From an uncultured Erythrobacter sp. (GTDB taxonomy: Bacteria > Pseudomonadota > Alphaproteobacteria > Sphingomonadales > Sphingomonadaceae): a stretch of DNA of 64,000 nucleotides. Numbering within the stretch: position 1 is the stretch's first letter; the number at the start of each line of letters is the position of its first letter. The stretch covers positions 558,001 to 622,000 of the forward strand of contig CANMIS010000002.1 of the NCBI GenBank assembly GCA_947498065.1, read 5' to 3'. The notes below the pieces were generated by a model that did no database searches, had not been told where the DNA came from, and worked only from the letters and a program-made list of their open reading frames with translations. The position numbers and the translations under genes were made by a program. This document shows, piece by piece, positions 15,319-40,804 of this stretch.

Positions 15319-16953
15319 ATGAGCAATGATGGGGATCGCAAGGCGGACTTGGGCGAGGACCAGGATACCGCGCGCAATACAGGGCAGGGCTCGGCCATGG
15401 CGGCGGCCTCATCGGCTGCGGGCACGTCTGCGGCCTCCAAGGCGACCGGTCACCCCGATCCGATCCCGTCCAAATCCAGCTTTTCGCGCGTATTGTTCAG
15501 CTGGCGGCGCTGGTGGCTCGAAGACGTCGTGGGCACGGTTCAGCAATCGAGCGTGATTGAGAAGCGGCGCGAGGATTGCGCGCTGTCGGAACGCTATCTG
15601 TTTATGACCGCGATGAGCGGCGGGATCGCGATCCTTGGCCTGCTGCTGTCCTCACCAGCGGTTGTGATCGGCGCGATGTTGCTCTCCCCGTTGATGGGGC
15701 CGATTATGGGGCTCGGTTTTGCTCTGGCGATTGGCGACTATGAGTGGCTGAAGCAATCCGCGCGCAGCCTCGCCTGGGGCAGTGTGATGGCGGTGGCGCT
15801 GTGCGCGCTGATCGTGTTTTTCTCACCTATCCAGACAATCACGCCAGAGATCGCGGCGCGCACCCGGCCCAATCTATTTGACCTTATGGTCGCGCTGTTT
15901 TCTGCGCTCGCGGGCGCTTATGCGATGATCCGCGGGCGCGAGGGCACGATTGTCGGCGTGGCGATTGCGACCGCTTTGATGCCGCCGCTCGCGGTGGTTG
16001 GCTTTGGCTTGGCGACCACCAACTGGACGGTCTTCTCCGGCGCGCTGCTGCTCTATGTCACCAACCTTATCACGATTGCGCTGGTCGCCTGGGCGATGGC
16101 GCGCCTCTATGGCTTCCGCCACGCACTCAGCCAGCGGCAAACCTATTTTCAAAACCTGATGGTGGCGGTGGTCTTTATGGCTCTCGCGGTGCCGCTGGGC
16201 CTCTCGCTCAGCCAGATCGCGTGGGAGGCCAATGCTCAGCGGATCGTCCGCAGCGAGATCGTGGAGACCTTTGATGATCGCTCTCGCCTCAGCGAAATGG
16301 AGATTGAGTTTGGCGGCGAAGGGCTGGGCGTGAATGCCACCGTCCTAACGCCGCGCCTACGAGCCGATGCGGAGACCGATGTCGAGCGCGCTTTGATGAG
16401 CCGGCTCGGGCGCCCGGTCGAACTGACGCTGACGCAGTACCAAGTCGGCACCAGCGCCAGCGCGGCTGAAGAGGCTGAAATTTCCGCCACCCGCGCCAGC
16501 GAAGAGGCGGCCGCCAGCGCTCGCGCGGAAAACCTCGCTCAGCGATTGGCGCTGGTCGCGGGCGTTCCGGCGGAAGATGTCTTGGTTGACCGCACCCGGC
16601 GCAAGGCGATGGTGCGCTCGCAGCGGCTCGAAGGCGCGTCTTTATCCGCCTATCGCACGCTGGAGCAGCGGATTGCCGCGACTGAGCCGGAATGGACAAT
16701 CGAATTGCTGCCGCCAATGGGCCGCTTGCCGGACATTATCGAATTTGACGAAGGCGAGCCGACGGTCGCAGGCATGAATGCGCTGCTCGTCGCCGCATGG
16801 GCGGGGCAAAGGCTCGATGTGCCCGTGGTGATCACCGGCAATGCGGAAAACGCCGCTCGCACGGCAGAACTGATGGCAGAGAACGGGCTGCAGGCCCGCG
16901 TTGAGGCGAGCTCAGGTTCCGTACGCCCACGCTGGGCTGACTTGTCTGAGTAG
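15319..16953 (+). CDS. DUF389 domain-containing membrane protein
   Basis: SSPAVVIGAMLLSPLMGPIMGLGFALAIGDYEWL and ATALMPPLAVVGFGLA, hallmark of DUF389. Confidence 0.88.
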   Translation: MSNDGDRKADLGEDQDTARNTGQGSAMAAASSAAGTSAASKATGHPDPIPSKSSFSRVLFSWRRWWLEDVVGTVQQSSVIEKRREDCALSERYLFMTAMSGGIAILGLLLSSPAVVIGAMLLSPLMGPIMGLGFALAIGDYEWLKQSARSLAWGSVMAVALCALIVFFSPIQTITPEIAARTRPNLFDLMVALFSALAGAYAMIRGREGTIVGVAIATALMPPLAVVGFGLATTNWTVFSGALLLYVTNLITIALVAWAMARLYGFRHALSQRQTYFQNLMVAVVFMALAVPLGLSLSQIAWEANAQRIVRSEIVETFDDRSRLSEMEIEFGGEGLGVNATVLTPRLRADAETDVERALMSRLGRPVELTLTQYQVGTSASAAEEAEISATRASEEAAASARAENLAQRLALVAGVPAEDVLVDRTRRKAMVRSQRLEGASLSAYRTLEQRIAATEPEWTIELLPPMGRLPDIIEFDEGEPTVAGMNALLVAAWAGQRLDVPVVITGNAENAARTAELMAENGLQARVEASSGSVRPRWADLSE

Positions 16954-16977
16954 GTTTCTTTGTTGGGTTTGACCAAG

Positions 16978-17058
16978 GCCACCCGCTCCCTCCACCCTTC
17001 CACCCGGATCATACTCCGGTGTGACAATCCGGGTGGAAGGGTGGAGGGAGCGGGTGGC
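16978..17058 (-). repeat. dispersed palindromic element, copy 1 (perfect 32-bp arms, 17-nt loop)
   Basis: GCCACCCGCTCCCTCCACCCTTCCACCCGGAT (16978-17009) is the exact reverse complement of 17027-17058; loop orientation opposite to copies 2 and 3. Confidence 0.93.
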
Positions 17059-17094
17059 TAGGAAGGTTTGAGCCGCAGCTCAAATTCCAACTAA

Positions 17095-18828
17095 TTACGC
17101 CGCCAGCTCCAGCGGGACGATCTCGCCTGACAGGTACAGCTTTTTCGCCTTCGCGCGGCTCAGCTTGCCAGAAGAGGTGCGGGGCAAGGTGCGCGGCGGC
17201 ACCAGTTCCACGACGCAGCTCATGCCCGTAACCGAGCGGACCTTGTCGGCGATCTGCTCGCGCAGGTGAATGCGCTCCGCCGGGTCAGAGACGCGGCAAT
17301 GGACCAGCACGGCGGGCGCTTCTTCGCCATTGTCGGTTTCAATCGAGAATGCGGCAATGTCGCCGTGATTGAAGCCAGGCAGCTGCTCCACCGCCCACTC
17401 GATATCCTGCGGCCAGTGGTTCTTGCCGTTGATGATGATCATGTCTTTGGCGCGGCCGACGATGAACAAATAGCCATCTGCCAAATATCCCATATCGCCA
17501 GTGTCGAGCCAGCCATCGACGAGGCAATCCTCGGTCGCTTCTTCGTTGCGGAAATAGGAGTGCATGACGCTGGGGCCGCGGCACCAGACTTTGCCAATCT
17601 GATGGTCGCCGCGTGCATGGCCGTCTTCGCCGCGAATTTCGACTTCCATATCGGGCAGGGTCTTGCCGCAATTGACGATCGCGCGGTAGCGGGCCGGGCG
17701 TGAGATATCGCGCGGTGTGCCCGACAGGCGCTCTTCCTCGACCAGCTCGACGCGAATGCCTTCGCCCGGCGGCATCACGGTGACCGCCAGAACCGCCTCA
17801 GCCAGACCGTATGACGGGGTAAAGGCGCTCGCCTTAAAGCCAGCATCGGCAAAGGCGTTGACGAAGCTTTGCATCACATCCGGGCGGATCATGTCCGCAC
17901 CATTCCCCGCAACACGCCAGCGCGAGAGGTCAAACCGTTCCGCAACATTGCTCTGGCTGGAAATGCGGCGCGCGCAGATATCGTAGCCAAAGGTTGGTGA
18001 GTAAGAGAGCGTGCCGCCTTTGTTGCGGCTGATCACATCGAGCCATGCCAACGGACGGCGGGCGAAGGCGTCTGGTTTCAAGTAATCGCCGGAAACCTGA
18101 TTGGCGATCAGCGACAGGAAACAGCCGACCAGACCCATATCGTGATACCAGGGCAGCCAGCTGACGCAGCGCTCGTTTTCGCCCAGCTGCATGCTGGTGG
18201 AATGGCCATAGAGATTGTGCAGCAAAGCCCGGTGCGTCACCGCGACCCCGGTTGGGAAACGGGTCGAGCCAGAGGAATATTGCAGATAGCAAATGTCTTC
18301 TGGATCAGCCTGCGGCAGCTCGCAGTCGGGCGCTTCGCGTTTCGCAAAGTCCTCATAGCTTTCGCTGGCGCAGTCTTGGCGATCCGCCGCAGCGCTCGCC
18401 ATTTCAGCGATTTCTTCTGGGTAGATCAGGATCTTTGGATCGGAGCTGTTCAGTTGCACAGCGAGCTGATCGATGAAGCTTTCCTTGCCGCCAAAGCTGG
18501 TCGGCAGCGGCAGCGGGACGGGCCATGCGCCAACATAGACGCAGGCGCAGAACAGAGCGGCAAAGTCAGGCCCGGTTTCCGCGATCAGCGCGATGCGATC
18601 TTCCTTGCCAATTCCGCTCGCGATGAGGCGGCGGGCCATGACAAGAGCGTCTTCGCGAAGCTCAGAATAGGGATAAACGCGCTCTAATTGTCCACGCATA
18701 TCATGGAAGTTGAGGCCCTTTTGGCTCTTCGCAGCGTAGTCAATGGCGTCGTTGAACGTCTCGAACTGCGCTCTGATGCGCGGCAATTCGCAATCATTCG
18801 GCGTCGGCGTCAATGCGGCGTCGGTCAT
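17095..18828 (-). CDS. fatty acyl-AMP ligase (AMP-binding, FAAL-like)
   Basis: YLQYSSGSTRFPTGVAVTHRALLHNL, SWLPWYHDMGLVG, DTGDMGYLADGYLFIVGRAKDMIIINGKNHWPQDIE. Confidence 0.85.
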   Translation of the reverse strand: MTDAALTPTPNDCELPRIRAQFETFNDAIDYAAKSQKGLNFHDMRGQLERVYPYSELREDALVMARRLIASGIGKEDRIALIAETGPDFAALFCACVYVGAWPVPLPLPTSFGGKESFIDQLAVQLNSSDPKILIYPEEIAEMASAAADRQDCASESYEDFAKREAPDCELPQADPEDICYLQYSSGSTRFPTGVAVTHRALLHNLYGHSTSMQLGENERCVSWLPWYHDMGLVGCFLSLIANQVSGDYLKPDAFARRPLAWLDVISRNKGGTLSYSPTFGYDICARRISSQSNVAERFDLSRWRVAGNGADMIRPDVMQSFVNAFADAGFKASAFTPSYGLAEAVLAVTVMPPGEGIRVELVEEERLSGTPRDISRPARYRAIVNCGKTLPDMEVEIRGEDGHARGDHQIGKVWCRGPSVMHSYFRNEEATEDCLVDGWLDTGDMGYLADGYLFIVGRAKDMIIINGKNHWPQDIEWAVEQLPGFNHGDIAAFSIETDNGEEAPAVLVHCRVSDPAERIHLREQIADKVRSVTGMSCVVELVPPRTLPRTSSGKLSRAKAKKLYLSGEIVPLELAA

Positions 18829-39353: not shown

Positions 39354-39388
39354 AAGGGGCGGTCCGCATAAGCGAGCCGCCCCTTTTT
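39354..39388 (+). terminator. rho-independent terminator
   Basis: AAGGGGCGG ... CCGCCCCTTTTT, 9-bp perfect stem followed by T5. Confidence 0.85.
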
Positions 39389-39414: not shown

Positions 39415-39495
39415 GCCACCCGCACCCTCCATCCTTCCACCCGGATTATCACACCGGGTTACGATCCGGGTGGAAGGGTGGAGGGCGCGGGCGGC
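39415..39495 (+). repeat. dispersed palindromic element, copy 2
   Basis: 32-bp arms (39415-39446 / 39464-39495) with 3 non-Watson-Crick positions; 17-nt loop TATCACACCGGGTTACG. Confidence 0.92.
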
Positions 39496-39515: not shown

Positions 39516-40679
39516 TCACATCCCGCGGGCGATCACCATTTTCATCACTTCGTTTGAGCCGCCAAAGATCCGCGTGATGCGGCAATCGCGGTACATGCGA
39601 GCGATCGGATAGTCGTTGATGAAGCCAGCCCCGCCGTGGAACTGCAGGCATTTATCGACGACTTCACCCTGCAGTTCTGTGACCATAAGTTTGGCCATGC
39701 AGGCGGTCGGCACATCGAGCTCGCCCTTCAGATGCTGCGCGATGCAATGGTTGACGAAGACCCGCGCCGCGGTGCTGCGCGCAGCAAGCTCAGCCATGAC
39801 AAACTGCGTGTTCTGGAAATCCCAGATCGTTTGGCCAAAGGCTTTGCGATCCTTGACGAATTCCATTGTGGTCTCGAGCGCCTTTTCGATACCCGTCATC
39901 GCGCCCATCGCAATGATGAGGCGCTCCTGAGGCAGCTCGCCCATAAGCTGGTAAAAGCCTTTGCCCTCGACCCCGCCGAGCACATTTTCCGCTGGCACGA
40001 ACACATCGTCAAAGAACAGCTCTGAGGTGTCGGCCGCATCCATCCCGATCTTGTCGAGTTTCTTGCCGCGTTGGAATCCTTCTGCGCCCTCCGTTTCGAG
40101 CAGCATCAGTGAGATGCCCTTTGCCCGCTCATTCGGGTCTGTCTTGGCGACGACGATGATGAAGTCGGCTGTCTGACCGCTGGAGATGTAGGTTTTCGCG
40201 CCATTGATGCGGTAGCCATTGCCATCTTTAAGCGCAGTGGTCGTGATGCCCTGCAAGTCCGAACCAACGCCGGGTTCAGTCATTGCAATCGCGCTGACGA
40301 GTTCGCCGGTCACCAGCTTAGGCAGATATTTCTTCTTCTGCTCTTCGGTGCCGTGGCGAACGAGATAGGGCAGGATCACGGTGTTGTGCAGGCTGGCGGC
40401 AAACCCTTCGACGCCGTGCTTTGCCTGTTGATCGAGCACCACGATGTCATGACGGAAATCGCCGCCGTGCCCGCCATATTCTTCTGGTACAGAGACGCCG
40501 AGCAGACCCGCTTCGCCGGCCTCGTTCCAGAACTCACGCTCAACCTGACCGTCTTCGCGCCATTTTAGAACGCGCTTTTCCGGGGCGTGCTGCTGATAGA
40601 ACTTGCCGACGGCATCAGCGAAGATCGAAATTTCTTCGTCTTCCATGAATTCCGGCTGCGCTACATTGATGACTGACAT
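39516..40679 (-). CDS. acyl-CoA dehydrogenase
   Basis: AIAMTEPGVGSDLQGITTTA, YISSGQTADFIIVVAKTD, QFHGGAGFINDYPIARMYRDCRITRIFGGSNEVMK. ORF-track N-terminus MEGAGGPGAQERE comes from palindrome copy 3; start MSVINV preferred. Confidence 0.92.
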   Translation of the reverse strand: MSVINVAQPEFMEDEEISIFADAVGKFYQQHAPEKRVLKWREDGQVEREFWNEAGEAGLLGVSVPEEYGGHGGDFRHDIVVLDQQAKHGVEGFAASLHNTVILPYLVRHGTEEQKKKYLPKLVTGELVSAIAMTEPGVGSDLQGITTTALKDGNGYRINGAKTYISSGQTADFIIVVAKTDPNERAKGISLMLLETEGAEGFQRGKKLDKIGMDAADTSELFFDDVFVPAENVLGGVEGKGFYQLMGELPQERLIIAMGAMTGIEKALETTMEFVKDRKAFGQTIWDFQNTQFVMAELAARSTAARVFVNHCIAQHLKGELDVPTACMAKLMVTELQGEVVDKCLQFHGGAGFINDYPIARMYRDCRITRIFGGSNEVMKMVIARGM

Positions 40680-40700
40680 TTCTCTCTCCTGTGCACCGGG

Positions 40701-40778
40701 GCCACCCGCGCCCTCCACCCTTCCGCCCGGAGCCTACCGGGATACCATCCGGGCGGAAGGGTGGAGGGCGCGGGCGGC
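40701..40778 (+). repeat. dispersed palindromic element, copy 3
   Basis: Arms 40701-40732 / 40747-40778, 2 non-matching positions; 14-nt loop CCTACCGGGATACC resembling copy 2. Confidence 0.92.
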
Positions 40779-40804
40779 CCCAGCCTCTCAAGCAAAAACT
40801 ATTT

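Follow-up and report, generated by a model that had tools for sequence, protein, structure and literature searches.

A stretch of 64,000 nucleotides from an uncultured Erythrobacter sp. (the window; G000:C2:558001-622000 of a 3.22 Mb genome) holds, between two convergent genes, a hairpin sequence whose arms match without error. What kind of element is it, and what keeps its arms identical? An initial annotation, made from the sequence alone, had described perfect 32-bp arms, two related copies further along the window and a setting between convergent DUF389 and fatty acyl-AMP ligase genes. The arms proved 100% complementary over 32 nt and Pfam agreed with the gene assignments. Both further copies are real, the first beginning at 39415 as given and the second at 40698 rather than 40701, and the arm differences quoted between copies, together with the 13/17 loop match, were correct on re-reading. 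The features are as follows.

15319-16953, plus strand: DUF389 gene, upstream of copy 1 (Pfam)
16978-17009, no strand: copy 1, left arm (32 nt); model match 16971-17065, 97.3 bits
17010-17026, minus strand: copy 1, loop of 17 nt; class B core, centre CCGG, partly self-complementary (TCATAC/GTGTGA)
17027-17058, no strand: copy 1, right arm, complementary to the left arm at all 32 positions
17095-18828, minus strand: AMP-binding (fatty acyl-AMP ligase-like) gene, convergent with the DUF389 gene (Pfam)
39415-39495, plus strand: copy 2, class B loop; arms 39415-39446 and 39464-39495 (91% complementary)
39516-40718, minus strand: acyl-CoA dehydrogenase ORF, between copies 2 and 3
40698-40781, plus strand: copy 3, class A loop; arms 40698-40731 and 40748-40781 (97% complementary over 34 nt)

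Copy 1 is predicted to fold as RNA at -86.6 kcal/mol (z = -14.2), and five mononucleotide-shuffled versions of the window contained no inverted repeat of 14 bp or more. Copy 2 is flanked by convergent TonB receptor and acyl-CoA dehydrogenase genes, and copy 3 by enoyl-CoA hydratase and acyl-CoA dehydrogenase genes on the minus strand. The listed GTG start of the dehydrogenase ORF falls inside copy 3, and its true start is likely the ATG at 40679. A good intrinsic terminator (GGGGCGG...CCGCCCC-TTTTT) was also noted at 39356-39388, just downstream of the TonB receptor gene and before copy 2.

A family of long palindromes in Erythrobacter

A covariance model detects only these three full copies in the window, whereas the whole genome has many more. 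The arm pattern, allowing up to 3 mismatches, matched 66 times against zero for the reversed control pattern, and the matches pair 47-50 bp apart. Together they make up 33 two-armed copies; a further copy (L031), which has a deletion in its left arm, is the exception to this spacing. The proposal of an interspersed palindromic repeat family, as opposed to coincidental terminators, is therefore upheld by dozens of copies genome-wide (33 + 1). The absence of an intrinsic-terminator T-tract, originally remarked on for copy 1, extends to all 33 two-armed copies of the genome: on none of their 66 sides does TTTT occur in the 12 nt next to the stem.

Each copy spans ~90 bp, with arms of 29-36 bp around a loop of 17-21 nt with a CCGG centre, and has the consensus GCCNNAG-CCACCCGCGCCCTCCACCCTTCCACCCGG-loop-reverse arm-CTNNGGC. 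The two main loop classes, AGCCTACCGGGATACCAT and ATTATCACACCGGGTTACGAT, each occur in both orientations. Pairing is perfect over 29 bp in 16 of the 33 copies, with mismatches at just 22 of 957 pairs. Small hairpins, 5-13 bp beyond the end of the palindrome, accompany 21% of sides, compared with 6% in shuffles; their loop is often GGAT and their stems vary from copy to copy (L008, L038, L052, L074, L084, L103, L145 and others), and they possibly belong to the mobile unit. A G4 motif conserved in 31/33 right and 29/33 left arms was weighed as the selected feature but is not proposed as such, the non-run positions GGAA and GGA being equally invariant.

A search with the covariance model, built from the 33 own-genome copies, recovered the family from 78 of 114 genomes of the genus, in a patchy distribution of zero to at least 37 matches per genome. 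Draft-genome copy numbers are underestimates because assembly contigs end inside copies, as seen in Erythrobacter sp. YT30 (G004; C1:14-33, C2:39-58, C2:1911842-1911861 and C3:335608-335627). The exact two-arm pattern, searched through 264 Gb (85,462 genomes), gave 88 stretches, exclusively from Erythrobacteraceae (Erythrobacter, Altererythrobacter, Qipengyuania or other members of the family), and viral contigs and a plasmid collection held zero copies in this exact form. On the sequences searched, the family in its present form appears confined to Erythrobacter and close relatives. Rfam gave no match above gathering score, only sub-threshold miRNA hairpin models, and no description of it came from literature searches with the arm sequences or on MITEs in Erythrobacter. 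The repeat family is real and, as far as Rfam and the literature searched can tell, uncatalogued.

Paired arm changes and in-place loop inversion

The two arms of one element resemble each other far more than they resemble those of other elements, arm differences being 0.67 within and 2.26 between elements (0 of 5000 permutations). Pairing is kept at 98.0% of paired positions, with double changes at 8 of 31 pairs. We compared 22 orthologous site pairs with two close relatives, G138 (CANMOQ, ~93% identical) and G132 (CANKYK, ~90%), and counted 13 double changes that kept pairing, 2 that did not and 42 changes in one arm; about 2 double changes would be expected if the arms mutated independently. 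At six of the 22 sites the loop is inverted in place with flanks the same or nearly so (L003, L035 and L039 against CANMOQ; L032, L043 and L046 against CANKYK), and four of these six have 0 or 1 other loop difference. A seventh flip called automatically, L030 against G132, was excluded because a 1-nt indel had misled the alignment.

The initial annotation had read compensatory pair changes as evidence that the fold is maintained. The paired changes are genuine, but selection on the fold is not proven by them: homogenisation of arms and inversion of the spacer are known outcomes of polymerase template switching in yeast (PMC8604942), so compensatory changes alone are insufficient proof. The pattern points to template switching during replication as the source of both the arm co-change and the loop flips, although flips of the loop would also follow from recombination between the arms, and selection could account for part of the double changes; the closest compared genome is ~93% identical, and no single-generation event was captured. 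Orthologous sites sometimes carry different loop classes, so that ectopic conversion between copies or re-insertion is also needed. Copy 1 had further been described as inverted relative to copy 2, which holds for the loop; since orientation flips in situ between orthologous sites, however, it is no record of the direction of insertion.

Gain and loss of copies

Full copies persist at orthologues of few of the own-genome sites (4 of 23 in G138 and 8 of 22 in G132), and at most orthologous sites examined in both close relatives the full hairpin has been lost, many of the remaining sites retaining a single arm or end as a relic. These relics match deletions between short direct repeats inside the arms, as in the copy 2 orthologue of G138, which lacks the right arm; a copy 1 relic in the same genome is possible but not certain. 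The search for empty sites in relatives, suggested by the initial annotation, had a mixed outcome: many site differences are losses with relics, and L010 and L009 are occupied in the own genome and empty in both close relatives without a clear relic. Both have the appearance of insertions acquired by the own lineage, with a length of ~150 bp instead of 90, and the true mobile unit may accordingly be bigger than the ~90-bp palindrome.

Some sites hold the palindrome in species only ~75% identical, and YT30, SAT50, A. lutimaris and CANKYK (~75-90% nucleotide identity) likewise carry a palindrome at the copy 3 site. A second repeat family, ATTTCCTCGCTCATGCGACCTGAAGGTCGCGTCGCTGCGGGCGGGCAGTCGCC-like, was observed at sites of own-genome palindromes in G138 (L245, L254) and G132 (L277, L274).

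Copies within protein genes

Alignment with uninterrupted orthologues placed three of the 34 own copies in frame within conserved genes. The insert in an HI0933-like flavoprotein (L005) is 37 aa long, is shared with G138 and G132, and is absent from G027, G140 and ten other genomes aligned; in a structure model of moderate confidence (mean pLDDT 63) it forms a low-confidence coil between two strands. The arms of this copy co-change too in comparison with CANKYK, and its position inside a coding gene makes selection on an RNA hairpin less likely there. The own genome, G132, G138 and G140 share the Na+/sulfate symporter (Na_sulph_symp) insert, of which G027 and G018 have variants; the DnaE2 insert is present in the own genome and absent from G132 and G140. 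In A. xiamenensis (L117) the DnaE2 linker contains the palindrome at the same place in another reading frame, as does the symporter of G018, and an epimerase-like gene of CANMSD contains one more in-frame copy. First-pass calls inside aroC, gpmA, mutM and valS/mlaE were discarded as 5′ leader artefacts once the translations had been read.

The DnaE2 linker between TLE and LRLGLRQVDG (L172-L201) is a recurrent landing place in the genus for several different repeat-like insertions. Insertion into genes is behaviour already known in other repeat families, published REPs also occurring within DnaE2 genes (PMC3733652) and Rickettsia palindromic elements (RPEs) in many Rickettsia genes (PMC2229807).

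Related palindromes outside the genus

Across the order Sphingomonadales, 71 of 301 genomes, from 25 of 80 genera, contain long palindromes matched by the same covariance model, which also has matches in a few other alphaproteobacterial families. In the 28 matched loci that we read, the architecture and the register of G runs are unchanged outside the genus while the bases between the runs differ, for example TGGGTGGCCGGGTGGGGGAGCGGGCTGGTG, and in three outside genomes paired copies bear one loop in both orientations (L286/L287, L308/L309 and L310/L311). The shared G-run spacing suggests common ancestry with the Erythrobacter palindromes. Such cousins were also seen on putative IMG/VR viral contigs (L318-L328) and on mobilizable plasmids of Sphingopyxis and Sphingomonas (L329, L330), and no transposase is annotated beside the two plasmid copies. 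Viral contigs and mobilizable plasmids are a possible route for these cousins between species.

A broader proposal would unite all of these in a class-wide alphaproteobacterial superfamily with the constant register GGGnGGnnGGGnGG(n)GGGnGnGGG, persisting without any transposase. In replication hairpins, copying from arm to arm would keep the copies sequence-perfect, with switching of loop orientation, conversion between copies and entry into flexible protein linkers; in DnaE2 and in the sodium/sulfate symporter, one linker would have been entered repeatedly and in different frames. We consider a synthesis of this reach unlikely.

Proposed explanation and alternatives

Our preferred explanation, to which as a whole we give a probability of about 0.72, is that these are interspersed long-palindrome repeats of ~90 bp that maintain themselves by arm-to-arm copying, die by deletion and are tolerated in frame in enzyme linkers. 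The family would be non-coding by default and non-autonomous. Copies would have been scattered in ancestors of the present species, mostly settling 13-40 bp beyond gene ends. During replication one arm would template the other, erasing arm mutations or copying them to both sides, and the same process would sometimes invert the spacer. Deletion between the short direct repeats in the arms ends the life of a copy and leaves recognisable relics, as the orthologous sites show. Insertions in enzyme linkers, which alignment demonstrates, would be passed on as peptides no longer than ~37 aa, probably tolerated because the GC-rich arms are stop-free in most frames.

Were the hairpin instead kept by selection as an RNA element (a transcript 3′ end, an RNase III substrate or an intergenic attenuator), the paired changes would be true compensatory mutations. 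The very stable fold, the position near stop codons, often in convergent or tandem context (as judged by a crude gene caller), and the occupation of the copy 3 site across species all agree with such a role. It accords poorly with the missing T-tracts, with copy 2 lying just past a good intrinsic terminator, with the loss of the full hairpin at most orthologous sites in two close relatives, and with the co-changing arms of the HI0933 gene copy, so that we regard selection for an RNA element as quite improbable.

Continuing movement is harder to set aside, and it is a tenable minority position that an active transposon still mobilises the copies as MITEs, through a transposase (DDE or other) that is encoded elsewhere and recognises the ~36-bp terminal inverted repeats. 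It would explain the terminal inverted repeats and ~90 bp size, the patchy copy number among genomes of the genus and the filled L010 and L009 sites. Against it, no target-site duplication stands out (direct repeats of at least 7 nt within 30 nt of both ends in 2 of 33 copies, at sites that are old), no longer element with these arms surrounds own copies, and many site differences are losses. Movement as a classical REP/BIME by a RAYT (Y1) transposase can hardly be sustained, nor can the REP part of the REP/MITE label offered by the initial annotation. GTAG (5/33) or GGAG (6/33) does stand beside the left arm in 11 of the 33 copies, and Y1 genes are present in G132 and G002, that of G132 being a weak IS200-like match over 93 aa that does not track copy number. 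REPs, however, are units of 20-40 bp with stems of 6-13 bp and a GTAG/CGTC tag in most copies, whereas the arms here are 3-5 times longer than such stems and an invariant tag is lacking. The annotation was right that the window has no RAYT-type transposase: with positive controls detected, Y1_Tnp (PF01797) gave zero matches in the complete own genome and was absent from 19 of 21 other carriers tested.

More broadly, stem covariation is routinely taken as proof of selected structure, and this family cautions against doing so, since paired changes combined with in-place inversion of the spacer, and paired changes in a coding gene, point to a mutational cause. The palindromes constitute a large natural data set in which template switching could readily be measured across evolutionary time, and they extend the phenomenon of protein-coding palindromes, best known in Rickettsiales, to free-living Sphingomonadales.

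Comparison with known repeat families

By description, the family resembles RPE-1 and other Rickettsia palindromic elements (Ogata, Claverie), which are multicopy long palindromes of ~100 bp that sometimes lie in frame within conserved genes and have no known mobiliser (PMC2229807). The present family differs in belonging to another order of Alphaproteobacteria, in its GC-rich, near-perfect arms and invertible loop, and in having only three of its 34 own copies in genes. GTAG/CGTC-tagged REPs are likewise palindromic and lie near 3′ gene ends, with some in genes including DnaE2 (PMC3733652), but they have a fixed tetranucleotide in place of the loose tag seen here, in addition to their short stems, and GTAG REPs often occur with a RAYT. 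Caulobacter CIR elements are also alphaproteobacterial intergenic inverted repeats; they carry a GANTC methylation site, which occurs in none of the 33 copies. The MITEs YPAL, NEMIS/Correia, RUP and ERIC share a size of ~100-170 bp, terminal inverted repeats that form a long hairpin, intergenic location and occasional in-frame fusions (PMC2229807); distinctive here is the in-place loop inversion at orthologous sites, and neither a clear target-site duplication, at these old sites, nor a partner transposase (Y1 searched) was found. The Erythrobacter family is likewise a long-palindrome, MITE-like repeat, and its record of arms that copy themselves and of a centre that can invert is unusually clear.
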